Assembly: GCA_019748195.1 (NCBI GenBank)
Contig: JAIEPW010000015.1
Coordinates: forward strand, 62,001 to 126,000
Length of the DNA stretch: 64,000 bases
Reading direction: 5' to 3'
Source: Bryobacteraceae bacterium
GTDB taxonomy: Bacteria > Acidobacteriota > Terriglobia > Bryobacterales > Bryobacteraceae
The position numbers were made by a program, and so were the translations under genes. Below, in pieces: positions 3,885-36,547 of this stretch (positions are counted from its first letter, which is position 1; each line of letters begins with the position of its first letter). The notes below the pieces were generated by a model. It searched no databases and was not told the DNA's origin. It saw nothing but the letters and a program-made list of their open reading frames with translations.

Positions 3885-5300
3885 CTACTTGCCGAAACAG
3901 TACATGTGACCCTGCGTTCGCAGGTAGATCCGCCCTCCTGCGATTGCCGGCGTGGCCCAGATCTCTTCCTGAAGATCGTTCTGCGCGATCATCTCCCAAT
4001 CGCCGGCGGCCTTCACGACGCTGACCTTGCCCGCCTGGCTTGCGAAGAAGATTTTGTCGTCGGCCGCCACAGGAGAGGCATAGTACGGGTCGAGCGCGCC
4101 CGTCAGGCGGCCCTGTTTCACCATATCGCCGGTCTTGGCGTTCAACGAAGTGATGATGCCGCCCTCCTTCAGCAGGAACACGGTGTCCTTGTACAGGATC
4201 GGCGAGGGAATGTTGGGCAGCGACTTGGAGTAGCGCCAGCGCACCCCGCTCTCCGTACGATCGCCCTTAGCCTCCGCGGCGGACTTGGGCAGGCTGATCG
4301 CGTACATGCCGTTCTTCGCCTGATTCCGCAGGAACAGCACGTTCCATTCATCCTTATCGATGAAGCGGTCCTTGTTCAGGTCGAACAGGAACATCAGCTT
4401 GCGCATCTCCTCGTAAGGGATCTCCTTCTGCGCTAGCTTGCCGTCCTTGTCCAGATCGCTCTTCTCGGCAACCGCTTCCCAGGGGTCGATGTCCTTGGGC
4501 AGTCCGATGCCCGACATGTCCGCCATCCAGGAATGTACATAAACGTGATCGCCTTCGAGCACCGGCAACGATTTCGCCTGCCAGGCCATGCCGTTGATCC
4601 ACCACAGCTTCTCGCCCGTGGCCGCGGAAAGAGCCTGCAATTGGTAGGAGCCGAGCACCAGCAGTTGCGCCGGCTGCCCCTTGGGTTCCCACACGATGGG
4701 CGTGGAGAAGCCGTGCGTCACGTCCTTGCGCTCTTTCTTCCAGCGTACCTTGCCGTCGGCGGCGTTCACCGCGATCAGGAACGAATCGGTATCCTGATCC
4801 GCTTGCAGGATCACCAGGTCCTTATACAGGATGGGCGAAGCAGCCATCCCGTAGGGAGCCTTGTTGAAGGGACCCAGCGGCACGCGCCACCGCTCCTTGC
4901 CATCCTTGTCGTACGACACCAGGCCGAAGGTCTCGAAGAAAACGTACACGTTCTGCCCGTCGGTAACCGGGCTGGGCGATACGGGCGTGTTCACCCCGCG
5001 CACGATGCCGTCGGCGGGCGCGTCCACTTTCCACAGCAGCTTGCCGTCCTTACGGTCCAGGGCGAGCGTGAACAGCCTGGCTTTCTCGTGCGCGGTGAGG
5101 TAGAGGCGATCCTCGGTCAAAGCGGGTGACGAATAGCCGGGCGGGATCGGCGTTTTCCAGATCACGTTCTTGTCCGGCCCGAACTCAGCCGGCAGGTTGG
5201 CGGCGGTCGCGACGCCGGAGCCGTTGGGACCGCGGAAGCGGGTCCAGGTTTCGGCGGAAAGCAGCGTGACCGAAATCAGCAGCGAGAATAGCGGTTTCAT
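3885..5300 (-). CDS. Secreted PQQ-like beta-propeller protein with EF-hand insertion (paralogue 1)
   Basis: A 471-residue exported protein with a short signal peptide (MKPLFSLLISVTLLSA) followed by TRFRGPNGSG, the usual beginning of planctomycete/acidobacterial PQQ-propeller proteins. Repeated blades carry D-x-x-x-G-K-x-x-W signatures such as DGKLLWKV and DGKVRWKK. Between blades, at about residues 282-293 and 307-318, lie two EF-hand-like calcium loops (DLDKDGKLAQKE, DLNKDRFIDKDE). Enzymatic PQQ binding is not shown; it may be structural like BamB. Two paralogues occur at 6405 and 24260. ATG 5300 is chosen for the signal peptide; 13 bases separate it from the upstream gene's stop, so it may be co-transcribed with the HEPN pair. 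Confidence 0.88.
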   Translation of the reverse strand: MKPLFSLLISVTLLSAETWTRFRGPNGSGVATAANLPAEFGPDKNVIWKTPIPPGYSSPALTEDRLYLTAHEKARLFTLALDRKDGKLLWKVDAPADGIVRGVNTPVSPSPVTDGQNVYVFFETFGLVSYDKDGKERWRVPLGPFNKAPYGMAASPILYKDLVILQADQDTDSFLIAVNAADGKVRWKKERKDVTHGFSTPIVWEPKGQPAQLLVLGSYQLQALSAATGEKLWWINGMAWQAKSLPVLEGDHVYVHSWMADMSGIGLPKDIDPWEAVAEKSDLDKDGKLAQKEIPYEEMRKLMFLFDLNKDRFIDKDEWNVLFLRNQAKNGMYAISLPKSAAEAKGDRTESGVRWRYSKSLPNIPSPILYKDTVFLLKEGGIITSLNAKTGDMVKQGRLTGALDPYYASPVAADDKIFFASQAGKVSVVKAAGDWEMIAQNDLQEEIWATPAIAGGRIYLRTQGHMYCFGK

Positions 5301-5313
5301 GTGATTGCCTTTG

Positions 5314-5985
5314 TCAACTCGCGATCGGGAGGTCCACCCAATTGCTGCGAACCGCCCCGGCCACAATTCTCAGCCGATGAGGGCCGGCTTTCACCGCTTG
5401 TGGAATCCTCGCATTGATCTGATACAACCCTTGGTGGTGCGGCGCCAATCCCGCAAAATTGGGGGCGATGGCAATGCCGCCGATTTCCACGCGCGTCGGT
5501 GCCTGTACTCGGGACAGACCGTCCGGACCCTGAATCACCGAACCCAGACCGGTGGCGTAGATAAGAATGATCTCGCCCGGCTTCGCGGGATCGAGCTGCG
5601 TGATGGGACGGTAATCCGCATGGGTGATCGCCAGACCCTCCTCGGCTCCATTCCCGGTGAGCACGATTGCGGGCGCGGAAAGCGGGAAGGATCGGACGTT
5701 CGCCACCTCGGCGGCGACCTCCACAATGCGCGAGTAATGCGCCGGCTCCAGAATCTGAATCGTTTCCGTGGGCAGGTGCTTCAAATGCCCTTTCTTAAGG
5801 ACTTCCGCCAGCTTCGCGTACGCCGGCCGCACACCTTGGGTTCCCGCGTCTGTGCAAGCAAGCACGAGTTTCCAGGGCTCCGCATCCTCGGGGCGCACAT
5901 AAGCGGCGGCGCTGATGGGAATCCCCGCATGCTCCAATTCCGCGATGAGGGTTGCTGCTTCGTCTACCAATATTTTTTCAACCAC
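5314..5985 (-). CDS. HEPN-partner-like protein fused to half of a TIGR03437 domain
   Basis: A 223-residue protein with two unlike parts. Residues 1 to about 95 look cytoplasmic and resemble small proteins encoded beside HEPN genes (possible antitoxin or nucleotidyltransferase-like partner; weak recognition). From about residue 97 the sequence matches the second half of the Solibacter-type TIGR03437 domain (PAKPGEIILIYATGLG, then GLAPHHQGLYQINARIP), normally found at the C-terminus of large exported proteins. No signal peptide is visible. The GTG start lies inside the HEPN gene with a 22-base overlap. The join could be a true fusion or a recombination scar. The C-terminal assignment is firm, the N-terminal one is tentative. 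Confidence 0.7.
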   Translation of the reverse strand: MVEKILVDEAATLIAELEHAGIPISAAAYVRPEDAEPWKLVLACTDAGTQGVRPAYAKLAEVLKKGHLKHLPTETIQILEPAHYSRIVEVAAEVANVRSFPLSAPAIVLTGNGAEEGLAITHADYRPITQLDPAKPGEIILIYATGLGSVIQGPDGLSRVQAPTRVEIGGIAIAPNFAGLAPHHQGLYQINARIPQAVKAGPHRLRIVAGAVRSNWVDLPIAS

Positions 5986-6377
5986 GACAGAACTCCCGCA
6001 TGCGGATCATCGATCGCGTCGATCAGATCTCGAACTGCCTTCTCGGAAGAAGGAACATAGCGCGCCTCACCGGACCAGTCCTTAACGGTATTCCAGTTCG
6101 TTTGCAAACTGGCGCTCTCGCCGACGGCTGCCCGATACTCGTCATCCAATCTCGCCTTGCTCTTCAAGCGCTCCAAATCATGGTGGTAGAAGCTCTTCGT
6201 AGAGTCCTTCTCGGGATACGTCTCGGCTAATATGAGCCGCGCGATTCTCGCCTTCAGCGCGCATTCCACGGCGTAACCAGCCAGGTAATAGGCAGCGGAA
6301 TAACAACCGGCCTCCTGCAGCACACGCGCATCCCGAATTCGCTCCAAGGCAAGCACCTGAAAATCCGATCTAGTCAC
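5964..6377 (-). CDS. HEPN domain-containing protein
   Basis: A 137-residue all-helical protein with the HEPN core signature SAAYYLAGYAVECALKARIA. HEPN proteins usually pair with nucleotidyltransferase-like partners as toxin-antitoxin or RNase-linked modules. The classical R-x4-6-H RNase motif is not obvious here, though a YHHDLERL stretch is present, so RNase activity should not be assumed. It starts with GTG and overlaps the next gene by 22 bases. A TACGAT hexamer on the minus strand ten bases before the start could be its -10 element. The pair sits between two paralogous PQQ genes, which suggests insertion between duplicated genes. Confidence 0.8.
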   Translation of the reverse strand: MTRSDFQVLALERIRDARVLQEAGCYSAAYYLAGYAVECALKARIARLILAETYPEKDSTKSFYHHDLERLKSKARLDDEYRAAVGESASLQTNWNTVKDWSGEARYVPSSEKAVRDLIDAIDDPHAGVLSWLKKYW

Positions 6378-6404: not shown

Positions 6405-7811
6405 TCACCGTTCCCCGATGCAGTACAAAGCCTGATTCGTCCGCACGTAAATCCGCCCATCCGCGATGGCCGGCGTGGCGTAAATGTCCTCGTCGAAGTT
6501 GTTCGCCGCCAGCAACTGCTGCTCCATGCCTGCTTTCAGCACCGCGATTACGCCTTTGGCGGAGGGGAAAAATACCTTGCCGTCCGCCGCCACGGGCGAC
6601 GCGTAGTAGTCGTCCGACGCGCCGCGGATGCGGTCCTGTTTCGCCGCCTGCCCCGTCTTCGGATCGAGCGTGGTCAGCACGCCTTTGTCGTTCAGCATGT
6701 ACAGCACGCCCTGGTACAGAACGGGAGAAGGAAGCTGCGGCGCGGAACGGTTGAACTTCCACTTCAAGCCGCTGGTCAGGTCGCCCTTGCCGCCGAGGGG
6801 GTAAGCGAACATCCCGTTCTCCGCCGCCATGCTGACCGCCCACTGCTTCCATTCCCTCTCGTTGACGCTGCCGTTCTCGTCCAGGTCGATGAACACCCAG
6901 TAGCGCTTGGTGCGCTGGTCCGGCGCTTCGTCCTTCTCCAGAAGGCCGTTCTTGTTAGCGTCCTGCGTCTTCAGCGTCTCCGCCCACGGCGTCACTGGAA
7001 CCTGGCGTCCTGGTTCGTTCTCCGGCGAGTTGTACCCGGCGATGTAGACCGTGTCCTTGTCGGCGACCGGGGTGCACTTCATTTCAGCGGGCAGGCCTCG
7101 TACCCACCACACCGCCTCGCCGTCCTTGGCCGAATAAACGTCCATCCGGAAGCTGGAAGGGGCGAGAATCTGCGTCGGCGAGTTTCCCTGCTTCAGGGTG
7201 ATCGGCGTCGAAGACCCGCTCAGCGCCTCCGGGCGCGGGCGCTTCCAGGCAGTCTTGCCGTCCTTCTGATTCAGCGCCAGGATGTAGGAGTCGCGGCTCT
7301 GGTCGATCACCAGAATTACCTTGTCTTCGGCCAGCACCGGAGACACCCCGATCCCGTAAACGTTGGAGAACGGCCCCAGCGGCGTTCGCCAGCGCTCGTT
7401 GCCGGACCAGTCGTACGCCAGCATTCCGTAATCCGGGAAGAAGACATACACGTTGCGTCCGTCGGCCACCGGTGTGGGCGAAGCCGGGTTGTTCAACTGA
7501 TGCAGTTTTTCCTTGCGATCGCGCGGCGCTTCCTTCTTCCACACCACCTTGCCGGTAGCGCGATCCAGCGCCAGTGTGTACAGCTTTTCGTCCTCGACGG
7601 CGGTCAGGAAGATGCGGTCCCGCGACACAATTGGCGACGAGTGTCCCGGAGGCACGGCTGTCTTCCAGATAACGTTCTTGTTCGGCCCGAACTCGGCCGG
7701 GATCGAGGCGGTTTCCGCGATGCCGGAACCGTTCGGACCACGGAAGCGATCCCAATCCGCGGCCATCAAGGCGGATGCCAGAAGCCAGACGAATGCGCGC
7801 ATGGAGAACAT
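6405..7811 (-). CDS. Secreted PQQ-like beta-propeller protein with EF-hand insertion (paralogue 2)
   Basis: A 468-residue paralogue of the protein ending at 3885, with the same order: signal peptide (MRAFVWLLASALMA), DRFRGPNGSG start, W-rich propeller blades (GKVVWKK, GKTAWKR), a mid-protein EF-hand pair (DANKNGLLEKDE and DLDENGSVNERE), then further blades ending in LYCIGER. Probably periplasmic or surface-exposed; catalytic role unproven. Two starts are possible, ATG 7811 and ATG 7802; the shorter gives the cleaner signal peptide. The 125-base gap to the next gene shows nothing recognisable. Confidence 0.87.
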   Translation of the reverse strand: MFSMRAFVWLLASALMAADWDRFRGPNGSGIAETASIPAEFGPNKNVIWKTAVPPGHSSPIVSRDRIFLTAVEDEKLYTLALDRATGKVVWKKEAPRDRKEKLHQLNNPASPTPVADGRNVYVFFPDYGMLAYDWSGNERWRTPLGPFSNVYGIGVSPVLAEDKVILVIDQSRDSYILALNQKDGKTAWKRPRPEALSGSSTPITLKQGNSPTQILAPSSFRMDVYSAKDGEAVWWVRGLPAEMKCTPVADKDTVYIAGYNSPENEPGRQVPVTPWAETLKTQDANKNGLLEKDEAPDQRTKRYWVFIDLDENGSVNEREWKQWAVSMAAENGMFAYPLGGKGDLTSGLKWKFNRSAPQLPSPVLYQGVLYMLNDKGVLTTLDPKTGQAAKQDRIRGASDDYYASPVAADGKVFFPSAKGVIAVLKAGMEQQLLAANNFDEDIYATPAIADGRIYVRTNQALYCIGER

Positions 7812-13133: not shown

Positions 13134-13156
13134 AGAGGATTCGCTCCACACTTATC

Positions 13157-15871
13157 ATGCGGCAGTACTTAGCTCTTAGTTTCGGCATCTCGGCGGGCCT
13201 TCTCTCCGCTCAGGAGTTCCGCACCGGCCAGGCGGCGCGGCTGGTCATCGGCCAGGAGACGTTCACCGCCCTGCGGCAGGGCGCTTCCCAATCGTTGGTC
13301 GGTGGCGTGGGCGGACTGGCGTTGGCCAACGACACGCTGTTTGTCACCGACGCCAATCGCATGGGCGCGGACCCGATCAACCAGCGCGTCCTGATCTTCC
13401 CCAACATCTCCAGGCAGTTCCCGGGCTTGCGCGAGTCTTATGGCGCGGACCGCAAATGCCAGGTTTGCGGCGGCGTCGCCGGCGTCGTGATCGGACAGCC
13501 GGACTTCACCAAACGCGATCCGGCACGCACCCGAACCGGCGTGCGCCTGCCCACGGCGGTGGCCACCGACGGCGCTATCCTGGCGATCGCCGACACGCAG
13601 AACAACCGCGTGCTGATCTGGAATTCCATCCCCACCGCCAACGGCGCCCCCGCCGACGTGGTGGTGGGCCAGACGGATTTCACCAGCTTCAAGCAGCCCA
13701 TAGTGGTCGATCAGACCAGCCTGCGCGGCCCGCAGGGCGTCTGGATCCAAGGCACGCGGCTGTTTGTCGCCGATACCCAGAACCACCGCGTGCTCATCTG
13801 GAACACCATTCCCACGCGTAATAACCAACCCGCCGACCTCGTAATCGGCCAGCCCAACTTCACCACCGCCTTCGAGCCTCCGGTGACCTTCACCGGCGTC
13901 ACCTCGGCCACCGCCGAGCGGCTTCTCGATCCCGTGTCCGTCACCAGCGACGGCACACGCTTGATCGTGACCGACCTCGGCCACAACCGCGTGGTGATCT
14001 GGGACTCCATTCCTAACGCCAACGGCGTCGCCGCCAACCGGGTCATCGGCCAGAAGGATTTCACCTCCGCCAGTTCCAACGCCTCACGCGATCTTTGCGA
14101 GTCCAATGGAACCGCCGATAACCAGCCCACCTACCCGCGCCGCTGCGCGGCAACATTGAACTTTCCACGCTATGCCCTCAGCGACGGCCGGCGCTTGTTC
14201 ATCGCCGACGGCGGCAACGACCGTATTCTGGTCTACAACGAAATTCCCACCCAGCCGGGCGCGCGCGCCGATGTCATCCTGGGGCAGCCCGACGAATTCA
14301 CGAACGTCGTCTCCGATCAGGGCGGGTTCTTCGAACCGCCTCCGGCGCAGGGCCGCCCGGACCAGATCCGCACCCCCGCTTCACTCGCCTGGGACGGCTC
14401 AACGCTGTTTGCAACCGATCCCTTCCAGCGCCGCGTGGTCGCGTTTTCGGTGAACGACGGCGAACTAAAGGCCGACAATATCCGCAACGCCGCTTCCCTG
14501 CGATACTACGCCAGCGGTTCCATCAGCTTCTCGGGCACCGTCAAGGAGAACGACGAAGCCACCATCAAGGTGGAAGACACCGAGTACAAGTACAAAATCG
14601 TCAAGGACGACAATTTCGAGAAGGTGATCCGCGCCTTCGTGTCGCTCATCAATGCGGGCGCCGGCGATGCGAACGTATTGGCCATCGCCAACATCCCGCT
14701 GCGCGCCATCCAGTTCAGCTCCCGCATTCCCGGCCCCGCGGGCAACGACATCGGGCTGACCGCCTCGGTTTCCACCGGCGCGGAAATCGTTCTTACCGTG
14801 AACACCCCGTTCCTCTCCGGCGGGCGCGAGCAACGCCCTTCCGCGCCCGGCGCGATCATCTCCATCTTCGGGGAGAACTTCACCAACCGGACCGAGAGCG
14901 TGTCCGTCGATGCCCCCACGTGGCCGTTATCGCTCGCCGGCGTCGAGGTGTACATGAACGGTTTCCGTCTGCCGCTGCAGTATGCCTCGCCCGGGCAGTT
15001 GAACGCCCAGCTCCTTTTCGATCAGACGGACATCACCAGCGCCAACCTCTACGTGCGGACCGTTCGTCCGGACGGCTCGGTCACCGTAACCAATCCGGTC
15101 GCCGTGCGGCTGGACCTGACCAACCCGGGCTTGTTCGCCGTGGGCGAACTCGATCCCCGGGCCGCGGTCGCCTTCCACGGCTCCAGTTTCGGCAACACCA
15201 CCGTTTCCGTCGACGGGACGGTCACTACCGGCAACACCGCCACCGTGCGTATCGAGGATCGCGATTACAGCTACACGGCGGTTGCCAATGACACGCTGAC
15301 CATCATCCGCGACAAGCTGGTGGAACTGATCAACGCCAATGCCGAGGAGAAGCTCACCGCCATCCCGTCCGGCCAGTTCACCCGAATCCTGCTGCGCGCC
15401 AAGGTGGCGGGCCCGGACGGCAATGGAATCGCCGTCGCCGTCTCCACAAGCGCCAACGCGAGCGTCGCCTTGTCGGTCACCAAAGCCACCACCTCCGGCG
15501 CCAACACCGAAGGCGCGCCCGTCACTGAGGAGAATCCCGCCGCGCCCGGCGAACTGATCGTTTTGTACGCCTCGGGACTCGGCCCGGTAAGCCCGCAGGC
15601 AGCCTTCGAGGCCGCGCTGGCGGGCGTCGCCTACAACGGCCCCCCGAATACCGCGGCGATCCCCGTCTCCGCGTTCGTGGGCGGCAACTCCGCAACGGTG
15701 CTGGGAGCAGGACTCAAGAAGGGCGCGATCGGGATTTATGAAGTGGTTCTGGAACTACCTTCGGCGCTCGAAACCAATCCGCTCACCGAAATCACGATCT
15801 CGCAGGAATTCAGCGTTTCCAACATCGTGCGCATCCCGGTGACGAAACCCGAGCCGCCGCCGGCTCCCTAA
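13157..15871 (+). CDS. Exported NHL-repeat protein with split TIGR03437 domain and two inserted domains
   Basis: A 904-residue protein with a signal peptide (cleavage likely after LLSA). Residues about 30-430 form six or so NHL-like repeats with the signature LFVADTQNHRVLIWN and ADVVVGQTDF. The rest is a TIGR03437-type tail (APGAIISIFGENF, then APGELIVLYASGLGPV) that is interrupted twice by a domain of about 90-100 residues, at roughly 459-555 and 685-775. The two copies align well (SGTVKENDEATIKVED against DGTVTTGNTATVRIED, each ending LINA). It is probably surface-located; ligand unknown. It ends in a Pro-rich tail and overlaps the convergent next gene by four bases. Confidence 0.88.
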   Translation: MRQYLALSFGISAGLLSAQEFRTGQAARLVIGQETFTALRQGASQSLVGGVGGLALANDTLFVTDANRMGADPINQRVLIFPNISRQFPGLRESYGADRKCQVCGGVAGVVIGQPDFTKRDPARTRTGVRLPTAVATDGAILAIADTQNNRVLIWNSIPTANGAPADVVVGQTDFTSFKQPIVVDQTSLRGPQGVWIQGTRLFVADTQNHRVLIWNTIPTRNNQPADLVIGQPNFTTAFEPPVTFTGVTSATAERLLDPVSVTSDGTRLIVTDLGHNRVVIWDSIPNANGVAANRVIGQKDFTSASSNASRDLCESNGTADNQPTYPRRCAATLNFPRYALSDGRRLFIADGGNDRILVYNEIPTQPGARADVILGQPDEFTNVVSDQGGFFEPPPAQGRPDQIRTPASLAWDGSTLFATDPFQRRVVAFSVNDGELKADNIRNAASLRYYASGSISFSGTVKENDEATIKVEDTEYKYKIVKDDNFEKVIRAFVSLINAGAGDANVLAIANIPLRAIQFSSRIPGPAGNDIGLTASVSTGAEIVLTVNTPFLSGGREQRPSAPGAIISIFGENFTNRTESVSVDAPTWPLSLAGVEVYMNGFRLPLQYASPGQLNAQLLFDQTDITSANLYVRTVRPDGSVTVTNPVAVRLDLTNPGLFAVGELDPRAAVAFHGSSFGNTTVSVDGTVTTGNTATVRIEDRDYSYTAVANDTLTIIRDKLVELINANAEEKLTAIPSGQFTRILLRAKVAGPDGNGIAVAVSTSANASVALSVTKATTSGANTEGAPVTEENPAAPGELIVLYASGLGPVSPQAAFEAALAGVAYNGPPNTAAIPVSAFVGGNSATVLGAGLKKGAIGIYEVVLELPSALETNPLTEITISQEFSVSNIVRIPVTKPEPPPAP

Positions 15872-35053: not shown

Positions 35054-35821
35054 ATGCCCAATCTGCTGGAAGGAAAAACAGCGGTAATCCTCGGGATCGC
35101 CAACAAGTGGAGCCTCGCCTACGCCATCGGGCAGGCGTTCCGGCGGGAGGGCGCGAACCTGCTGCTGACCTATCAGGGCGAGCGTCTGCGGAAGTCGGTG
35201 GAGGAACTCGGCGGCGAGCTCGGCGCGTCGAAGGTGTTCTCCTGCGATGTCACCCAGCCCGCCGATCTCGAACAGCTCACCGGCGTCTGCCGGGAAGCCG
35301 GCGGCGTCGATAGCGTGGTCCATTCCATCGCCTTCGCCAATCGCGAGGACCTGGCGCGACCGTTTGTCGAGACGTCGCGCGAAGGCTTCCTGACCGCCCA
35401 GGAGATCAGCGCGTTTTCCCTGGTCGCGGTGGCGCGAGCCTGCGCCCCGGCCATGACCCGCGGCGGCTCCATGATGACTTTGTCCTATCTGGGCGCGGTC
35501 CGCGTGATCCCGAACTACAACGTGATGGGCGTCGCCAAAGCCGCGCTGGAAGCCAGCGTCCGCTACCTCTCCAGCGATCTGGGGCCGCAAAACATCCGCG
35601 TGAACGCGATCTCCGCTGGACCCGTCAAGACCGCCGCCGCCCGCGGCATCAAGGATTTCTCCAAGGTGCTGGAGGGCGTTGCTTCCCATTCGCCCCTGCG
35701 CCGCAATACGGATCCGGCGGAAGTGGCCGATACCGCCGTGTTCCTCGCCAGCGAGCTCGGCCGGGGCGTCACGGGCAACGTCTTGTACGTCGACGCCGGA
35801 TTTCACATCATGGGTTTGTAG
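35054..35821 (+). CDS. fabI: Enoyl-[acyl-carrier-protein] reductase (NADH)
   Basis: A 255-residue FabI. The divergent glycine motif GIANKWSLAYAIG, the active-site pair Y145 and Y155, and K162 (Y-x6-K) are all present, as is the family end region NVLYVDAGFHIMG. It catalyses the last reduction of each fatty-acid elongation cycle in the cytoplasm and is the target of triclosan-type inhibitors. The next gene starts at the base after its stop, so the two are co-transcribed. Confidence 0.96.
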   Translation: MPNLLEGKTAVILGIANKWSLAYAIGQAFRREGANLLLTYQGERLRKSVEELGGELGASKVFSCDVTQPADLEQLTGVCREAGGVDSVVHSIAFANREDLARPFVETSREGFLTAQEISAFSLVAVARACAPAMTRGGSMMTLSYLGAVRVIPNYNVMGVAKAALEASVRYLSSDLGPQNIRVNAISAGPVKTAAARGIKDFSKVLEGVASHSPLRRNTDPAEVADTAVFLASELGRGVTGNVLYVDAGFHIMGL

Positions 35822-36547
35822 ATGTACTCCGCTGTTTCTCTCCTTCTGTTTGCCGCGGCTTCGTATCCGCCGCCCGAATTTCACACTCCCACGCCCTTGC
35901 CGGGCGGCGACATCCTGGTCGTCGGATTCATGCACGGCTGGGAGCGCGACTTCAACCCGGTCCGCGCCGTCTCCAAGGTCGCCGTCAACCTTCGCAACCG
36001 CGCTCTCCCCAAGGTTCACGTCGAGACTGCCGCGAATCGCAACCGCAAGCTGGTGCGCGAATTGATTCTCAAGTCACTGGACAGCGATGGCAGCGGCGCG
36101 GTAAATCCGGAGGAAGCCGGGCGGGCTCGGATCGTGATTTACGGGTTCAGCAAGGGCGGATCCGCCACCGTGCAATTGGCCCGCGAACTGCAAGCGCTCG
36201 GGATTCCAGTCCTGCTTACGGTGCAGGTGGATAGCTGGGGCCGCAAGGACTCGGTGATTCCGTCCAACGTGCAGCGCGCGGTTAACTTCTTTCAATCCTC
36301 CTGGCCGGTGCGCGGCGTGCAACGGATTCGCGCCGAAAATCCACGGAAAACCGAGATCCTGGGCAACCACAAGCTGTCCTATCGAAACTCGAGCATCGAA
36401 CTCCCGCCGGACCGCTACGACCACTGGCAGCGGCATTGGTACCGCCCTCACGCGACCATCGACGCCGACGCCGCGCTTTGGACCCGGATCGAAAACCTGA
36501 TCCTGGACACCGTTCGGCCGCTTTGTTGCCTTGCCAAGGCGGAGTGA
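35822..36547 (+). CDS. Lipase-like alpha/beta hydrolase, exported
   Basis: A 241-residue protein with a short hydrophobic start (MYSAVSLLLFAAAS), a nucleophile-like elbow YGFSKGGSA (G-F-S-K-G) and HGWERD early, which could be the oxyanion region. Between these lies DSDGSGAVNPEE, a good EF-hand loop, an unusual place for one. Several His residues near the end (DHWQRHWYRPH) could supply the catalytic His. ATG directly abuts the fabI stop. The hydrolase fold is probable; substrate unknown. Confidence 0.75.
   Translation: MYSAVSLLLFAAASYPPPEFHTPTPLPGGDILVVGFMHGWERDFNPVRAVSKVAVNLRNRALPKVHVETAANRNRKLVRELILKSLDSDGSGAVNPEEAGRARIVIYGFSKGGSATVQLARELQALGIPVLLTVQVDSWGRKDSVIPSNVQRAVNFFQSSWPVRGVQRIRAENPRKTEILGNHKLSYRNSSIELPPDRYDHWQRHWYRPHATIDADAALWTRIENLILDTVRPLCCLAKAE

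Follow-up and report, generated by a model that had tools for sequence, protein, structure and literature searches.

Positions 5,314 to 5,985 of the stretch of DNA analysed here (the window, 64,000 nucleotides of a contig of a Bryobacteraceae bacterium) hold a minus-strand gene whose product begins as the partner of an upstream HEPN protein and ends in part of TIGR03437, a domain typically carried by exported proteins, although that location is not part of the model itself. How did two such parts come to share one reading frame, and could the joined protein still serve the HEPN gene? The original prediction offered two answers, namely that a cytoplasmic antitoxin-like protein had captured a surface domain, or that the HEPN pair had landed in a gene of an exported protein and the frame had stayed open.

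The locus and its reading frames

The features concerned are the following.

5314..5985 (5985→5314), minus strand: fusion gene, 223 aa; a single open frame with a GTG start and no internal stop
5964..6377 (6377→5964), minus strand: HEPN-domain gene, 137 aa; GTG start; matches in Pfam, PHROGs and PADLOC, and invariant residues
5964..5985, minus strand: overlap of the HEPN 3′ end with the 5′ start of the fusion gene, 22 bases
5698..5985, minus strand: partner-family part, residues 1-96; profile match over residues 7-83, last beta-hairpin of the family missing
5680..5712, minus strand: junction or linker, residues 92-102; pLDDT below 50 in the predicted model
5317..5679, minus strand: IPT/TIG module, residues 103-223, corresponding to the second TIGR03437 repeat; TIGR03437 match and fold comparison of the predicted model
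5704..5706, minus strand: in-frame GTG codon 94, at which translation of a TIG-only product might begin; GGAGG (5718-5722) lies 11 nt ahead; from sequence only
6405..7811, minus strand: PQQ2, a PQQ-type beta-propeller protein with a signal-like N-terminus; Pfam PQQ_2, E 9.9e-30
3885..5300, minus strand: PQQ1, a PQQ-type beta-propeller protein with a signal-like N-terminus; Pfam PQQ_2, E 7.8e-26

The HEPN and fusion frames are both intact, and the pair is flanked by the paralogues PQQ1 and PQQ2, with 27 nt between the PQQ2 stop and the HEPN gene and 13 nt between the stop of the fusion gene and the PQQ1 start. As had been predicted, the fusion protein has no signal peptide: a hydrophobic N-terminal stretch is absent, the best 12-residue mean hydropathy being 1.25 versus 2.28 and 2.15 in the PQQ neighbours. 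The idea of a cytoplasmic partner protein carrying a module of exported proteins therefore stands insofar as one open frame without signal peptide encodes both, but the module is not the broken half that it had been taken for, as described below.

The fusion would be only formal if translation also started at GTG codon 94 and yielded a separate TIG protein of ~130 aa, for which the GGAGG ahead of this codon could serve. We consider such a second product very improbable, as this GGAGG lies rather far from the codon, a signal peptide would be missing from the product, and the sequence context of the main GTG start includes a better placed GGGAG, 7 nt ahead.

The HEPN gene and its two-gene cassette

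The window HEPN is matched by phrog_5737 of PHROGs over its full length (E 3.9e-31, model positions 1-138) and by PDC-M28A of PADLOC (E 4.5e-11), which is a candidate only; the library shows no cut-off, and component A matched without a second component being identified. It remains below the family cut-offs of Pfam PF05168 (E 0.0012, 19.4 bits versus 22) and TIGR04498 (18.3 versus 27 bits); the HEPN of a relative, L144, reaches 30.2 bits with PF05168 and lies above that cut-off. Across the window HEPN and 12 aligned relatives, E38 and K42 (E38-x3-K42), H66 and R106 are invariant. The classical Rx4-6H motif is not present, the invariant R106-Y107 being without an invariant H at that spacing. 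In section 6 of the HEPN survey, Ex3[KR] is given as common in HEPN domains, and the survey describes AbiV/AF0298-type HEPN as carrying an alternative conserved H that is N-terminal to an incomplete R motif (Anantharaman et al., 2013; PMC3710099). Because the invariant E38, K42, H66 and R106 fit the set described for that type, a metal-independent RNase site in the window HEPN is plausible. The window HEPN is thus like the AbiV/AF0298 type in being without Rx4-6H and in having Ex3K, the alternative H and the R, but it scores below the family cut-off and is paired with a partner gene in nearly all loci examined. In the literature searched we found no experiment showing HEPN toxicity or restraint of the HEPN by the partner, and in the open-licence literature no paper on phrog_5737, phrog_5760, PDC-M28, TIGR03437 or Soli_cterm.

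Scanned with the HEPN alignment, species-representative genomes yielded 395 relatives. The best 80 of these 395, which were kept for locus analysis (L125-L204), come from Acidobacteria, Planctomycetes, Cyanobacteria, Chloroflexi, Nitrospirae, Bacteroidetes and others, and from archaea as well. In 75 of the 80 loci a start codon for the downstream gene is available exactly 19 nt ahead of the HEPN stop codon, which gives the two genes an overlap of 22 bases, in a count that favoured a start at -19 wherever one was present with at least 60 codons. Within the window's own family the HEPN is present in 64 of 237 genomes, own genome included; only the best 30 matches came with loci, which gave 29 new ones (L205-L233), one of them (L211) being the window itself. 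Among the 28 others from these best 30 matches, 26 show the identical 22-base overlap and 27 have a partner of 123-129 aa, that of L215 being counted at 98 aa with a start codon further on. Over both locus sets, archaea included, the 22-base overlap is nearly fixed. Additionally, the HEPN was found in one phage record. Since it is scattered over many phyla and archaea, occurs in 64/237 family genomes and reaches a phage record, we regard the HEPN and its partner as a common, poorly described and apparently mobile two-gene unit. The partner protein of L205, in the window's family, is identical in sequence to that of L179, from ‘Bryobacterales bacterium isolate bog_159’.

Apart from the PurH part of one partner (L130), the partners scanned gave no Pfam or NCBIfam family above cut-off, and three partner proteins scanned against PADLOC gave no match at E 0.1. 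Among known families, the pair is close to phrog_5737 and phrog_5760, two PHROGs families of unknown function, the first matching the window HEPN and the second the canonical partners of two relatives (E 2e-5 and 1.1e-5); the fused partner of the window differs, having no phrog_5760 match at E 0.1, the end of the family fold lost and a TIG module added. The HEPN-MNT systems (type VII toxin-antitoxin) are alike in consisting of two adjacent genes, for a HEPN and a small alpha/beta partner, but here the HEPN gene comes first, the reverse of the HEPN-MNT order given in section 14 of PMC3710099. In a Foldseek search with the partner model, chains of HEPN-MNT entries, the subunit not being stated, took ranks 2, 3, 8, 12 and 36 (E 0.042-0.49; 7ae2_B at rank 2 with E 0.042), with no match at E 0.001, and the partner fold compares weakly with 2rff, a putative nucleotidyltransferase (Z 6.6), and with the MNT antitoxin 8xeo_B (Z 4.3). 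The nucleotidyltransferase motif, for which Polbeta rows have FGSAARGEMRPDSDID, is absent from the consensus of the 50-row partner alignment, and hhalign of the partner profile against 22 Polbeta-family rows returned a probability of 0.55%, that is, no profile similarity (of 26 rows, the 22 with FGS were kept, one of which, L240, is still shifted). For the view that the partner may be a degenerate MNT, the fold ranks are suggestive, but Z stays below 7 and profiles give no support.

The partner part and the TIG module

The original prediction that the first ~95 residues are the partner of the upstream HEPN, with a 22-base overlap, was upheld: bases 5964-5985 are shared, and against a profile from the partner genes of other loci the window partner part scores 45 bits over residues 7-83 (the E of 4e-15 refers to a set of only 8 sequences). 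The match stops at node 88 of 128, at residue 83. For the canonical partner of L144 (128 aa), the model from a 50-row alignment has pLDDT 90.7 and elements H8-22, E30-36, E41-47, H49-54, H56-69, E81-84, H89-97, E107-114 and E117-127, of which the last two strands are a conserved hairpin ending in (I)EDAYIYR, partners normally ending near residue 125. The partner part of the fusion model has H4-19, E24-30, E39-44, H45-50, H52-65, E76-79 and H81-94, the hairpin strands being absent, and this N-terminal part is to be read with caution as the alignment of the model places partner residues beyond ~65 wrongly. The terminal hairpin is reached by 115 of the 121 partners scored with the profile (117 distinct sequences, as four pairs are identical). 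The six that fall short are L168, L054, L217, L055, L056 and the window copy L211; L217, L055 and L056 have ordinary length and may merely align badly. Dropped from the set before scoring were L142, which runs off its contig, and L200, where no partner was found; also dropped were L047 and L049, which we treated as duplicates of L125 and L182, together with L058 and L061, and L041-L045 were not used as partners. Judged on the profile match and the predicted models, the terminal beta-hairpin of the family (~30 residues) is exchanged for another module in the window copy, and this loss of the partner's own C-terminal end is a point that the original prediction did not contain. In L181 (4396-4773 and following), a stop codon falls within the terminal hairpin of the partner and a YAYIYRVQ tail continues in the same frame, so that this is apparently a truncated copy.

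The window partner is also the most diverged of eight long partners compared (45 bits versus 53-96 for the other seven), and in the printed rows of the 121 partners only L055 and L056 score below it; in the alignment it has a 4-residue gap near its start and is without G14 and W33, which are nearly invariant in the family. This divergence counts against a working regulator and could mean decay, and losing two strands could ruin the partner fold. In the main rival to the explanation that we favour below, a possible but rather doubtful one, the locus would be a decay product: the partner, deprived of its C-terminus, would no longer function, the TIG part would be merely what lay in frame, and the HEPN would be tolerated as inactive or unexpressed. 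Such decay would agree with the diverged partner part, its missing hairpin and its lost conserved residues, with the broken HEPN copies in the window's own family (stop codons in G009, G386 and G506, two-frame splits in G468, G483, G484 and G527), and with a fusion that no relative examined shares. However, the HEPN of the window keeps every residue invariant in the 12 relatives, both frames are open, and the TIG part has retained its core, with a good fold predicted for it; moreover, if the HEPN is toxic, prior loss of its regulator would not have been tolerated.

Additions at the partner's C-terminus occur elsewhere. Beyond the profile match there are 120 aa in L192, 114 in L128 and 113 in L146 (all three from Planctomycetes), 131 in L147 (Microbispora), 173 in L054, 90 in L062 and 516 in L130; L056 has 42 aa past the match at ordinary length. 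In L130 (4396-6339, SAR202 MAG contig JASLRP010000558.1), the partner frame continues into an entire PurH (AICARFT/IMPCHase E 2.3e-114, MGS E 9.7e-21), although purH may in fact start at an internal GTG. The C-terminal parts of L128 and L147 gave no Pfam match at E 0.1 and that of L192 gave weak ones only. Since seven other partners extend 90-516 aa past the profile match, PurH in L130 included, the partner end appears to tolerate joining.

In the fusion protein, residues 103-221 score 86.3 bits against NCBIfam TIGR03437 (Soli_cterm; cut-off 29.05, E 2.5e-24) and cover positions 97-224 of the 225-position model, the first of its two repeats being absent. The match is well above chance, as a TIGR03437 search of 14 control genomes gave a match in none of them. 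The predicted beta-sandwich has pLDDT blocks of 90-98 from residue 121, and of 59-67 for residues 101-120. The module model superposes on residues 496-581 of the cyclodextrin glycosyltransferase 4cgt, which we take to be domain D (Z 12.0, rmsd 1.4 A, 82 aligned, 28% identity), and on the CAMTA1 TIG domain 2cxk_D (Z 10.3, covering 81 of 84 residues). By these fold comparisons, the fused TIGR03437 piece is a complete IPT/TIG fold in the predicted model, joined close to a natural boundary. The two halves of TIGR03437 are themselves homologous repeats (hhalign probability 97.6%, E 3.5e-12 for a single comparison, 123 columns; trimmed halves were used, as untrimmed first halves ran into the second repeat). 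‘Half of a TIGR03437 domain’, as first claimed, is thus right for the model, of which half is matched, but not for the fold, which is predicted to be a complete TIG and whose repeat also stands alone elsewhere.

At E <= 0.001 the genome of the window has 60 TIGR03437 places, 59 of them above the cut-off and most with both halves. The second repeat occurs alone in two proteins of contig C154 (open frames of 325 and 328 aa, with signal peptides by eye). The TIG module can therefore stand alone, since its predicted fold is complete and these two proteins have no first-repeat match. Among TIGR03437 and IPT/TIG proteins, the fusion is alike in having the whole second repeat with a TIG fold, and differs in having no first repeat and no signal peptide and in being attached to a HEPN-partner protein. 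TIGR03437, although named as one domain, accordingly consists of two TIG-like repeats, and the second can occur by itself. A recent duplication within the genome was considered as the source of the TIG part and ruled out: the nearest copy in the genome is 42-43% identical, and the best-scoring other copies are 35-45% identical. As minor observations, the two C154 proteins are adjacent (L014, 1-957 and 961-1944) and their N-terminal parts look alike by eye, and positions 13136-15868 of the window (plus strand) hold a 911-aa open frame with an NHL repeat (E 2.5e-8) and two TIGR03437 matches (model positions 11-132 and 88-224).

Origin and possible role of the fusion

Based on these findings, we propose, giving the proposal about an even chance, that in a mobile HEPN-partner cassette the hairpin of the partner was swapped, through accidental in-frame recombination, for a self-folding TIG cap, and that the partner still regulates an RNase-type HEPN. 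First, the horizontally spread cassette (HEPN and a ~128-aa partner, with the 22-base overlap) would have come to sit between two tandem PQQ genes. Accidental recombination would then have joined the partner gene in frame to the 3′ part of a TIGR03437 gene, exchanging the last beta-hairpin of ~30 residues for one whole TIG-fold repeat. In the resulting pair, by analogy with HEPN-MNT pairs, the HEPN would be an RNase-type effector with an alternative-histidine site, the N-terminal alpha/beta part of the partner would bind the HEPN and restrain or tune it, and the TIG module would be a self-folding C-terminal cap in the cytoplasm, passive, without export and probably without surface function. 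Accidental joining with a downstream frame would be the simplest account because other partners also carry C-terminal additions. A C-terminal swap that leaves the N-terminal part of the partner could be tolerated, because HEPN-MNT antitoxins vary in their C-terminal elements; the MNT of Legionella is without the alpha4 helix of other MNTs and still regulates its HEPN (PMC11586414).

The TIG module could instead have replaced the part that senses or locks the HEPN, and could bind a phage protein or a mislocalised envelope protein (or glycan) in the cytoplasm, thereby releasing or holding the RNase effector. We regard this as very improbable; were it true, the sensor of an abortive-infection-like pair would be a domain taken over from exported proteins. 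The locus resembles an isolated gene fusion more than it does a new system. As an evolutionary event the fusion is ordinary, and its interest comes mainly from the widespread, uncharacterised pair behind it: HEPN-partner pairs are common, occur in many phyla and archaea, nearly always overlap by 22 bases and have scarcely been described. The fusion also shows which portion of the partner can be lost or extended.

Neither a precursor, a sister copy nor an adjacent TIGR03437 gene was found in the genomes searched, which held no second one of the genus. With the partner part alone as query (E 0.01), 297 phylum genomes gave matches in 6, the window's own genome among them and the others weak; this search is insensitive, as the HEPN itself was found in 16 of the 297. 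The whole fusion protein, searched against 61 genomes, was matched among the matches listed on its TIG side only, bar a few that reach into the partner part. Three of these, starting at query residues 39, 68 and 73, were considered as a possible second fusion and rejected: they are TIG repeats in frames of 485-533 aa, and at these three places neither the partner nor the HEPN gives a match below E 0.8. The other matches reaching into the partner part start at residues 81-90. The second TIGR03437 repeat was found in the flanks of none of 126 other HEPN loci (flanks of 1.5 to 4 kb where the contig allows, several loci being the same place twice; frames of at least 40 codons, E <= 1e-4).

The other origin suggested at first, that the cassette inserted into a TIGR03437 gene resident between the PQQ genes, the 5′ part of which would then have been deleted, concerns the origin only and would fit either fate of the fusion. 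We hold it to be unlikely, and no positive evidence for the landing came to light. In its favour, the C-terminus of the TIG part looks native and lies 13 nt ahead of the PQQ1 start, an arrangement that would suit a resident gene of the operon, and TIGR03437 genes are abundant in this genome; against it, neither the first repeat nor an exported protein has left any 5′ remnant in the 27 nt between PQQ2 and the HEPN gene. By the same frame and E thresholds, only one of 58 PQQ-relative loci has a TIGR03437 match (L072), and that on the opposite strand (flanks up to 1.5 kb, at least three places being included twice). Seven tandem PQQ pairs in other genomes of the family are only 8-49 nt apart, although they are perhaps not orthologous to PQQ1 and PQQ2, and a plain PQQ tandem as the older state would fit. 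The closest PQQ relatives do not share the gene order of the window locus, and no empty site could be defined, PQQ1 and PQQ2 relatives being numerous paralogues of which the closest lie apart.

Composition also bears on insertion into a resident gene. GC3 is 0.65 in the HEPN gene, 0.69 in the partner part and 0.69 in the TIG part (whole block 1064 bp), versus 0.83-0.84 in the flanking PQQ genes. The TIG part is thus like the HEPN and partner parts and lies below all 19 other TIGR03437 stretches measured in the same genome (mean 0.81, sd 0.06, minimum 0.71), a contrast that is weak, as 11 of 100 comparison windows of long ORFs have GC3 as low as the block. The values mildly favour a block that may have arrived as a unit, or a shared relaxation, over insertion into a resident gene. 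A search for an insertion footprint gave one 7-bp direct match (5324 and 6396), with 0.6 expected by chance, which we do not take as a target duplication.

Two further observations concern composition and gene order. At 35314-36231 of the window (plus strand), a 306-codon open frame with no Pfam match at E 0.001 has GC3 0.47 versus ~0.8 around it, and is either a foreign gene or not a gene. In another genome of the family (L232; G013, contig C100), the HEPN gene lies on the opposite strand ~400 nt past a tandem PQQ pair, with the partner gene filling the gap, possibly by chance.
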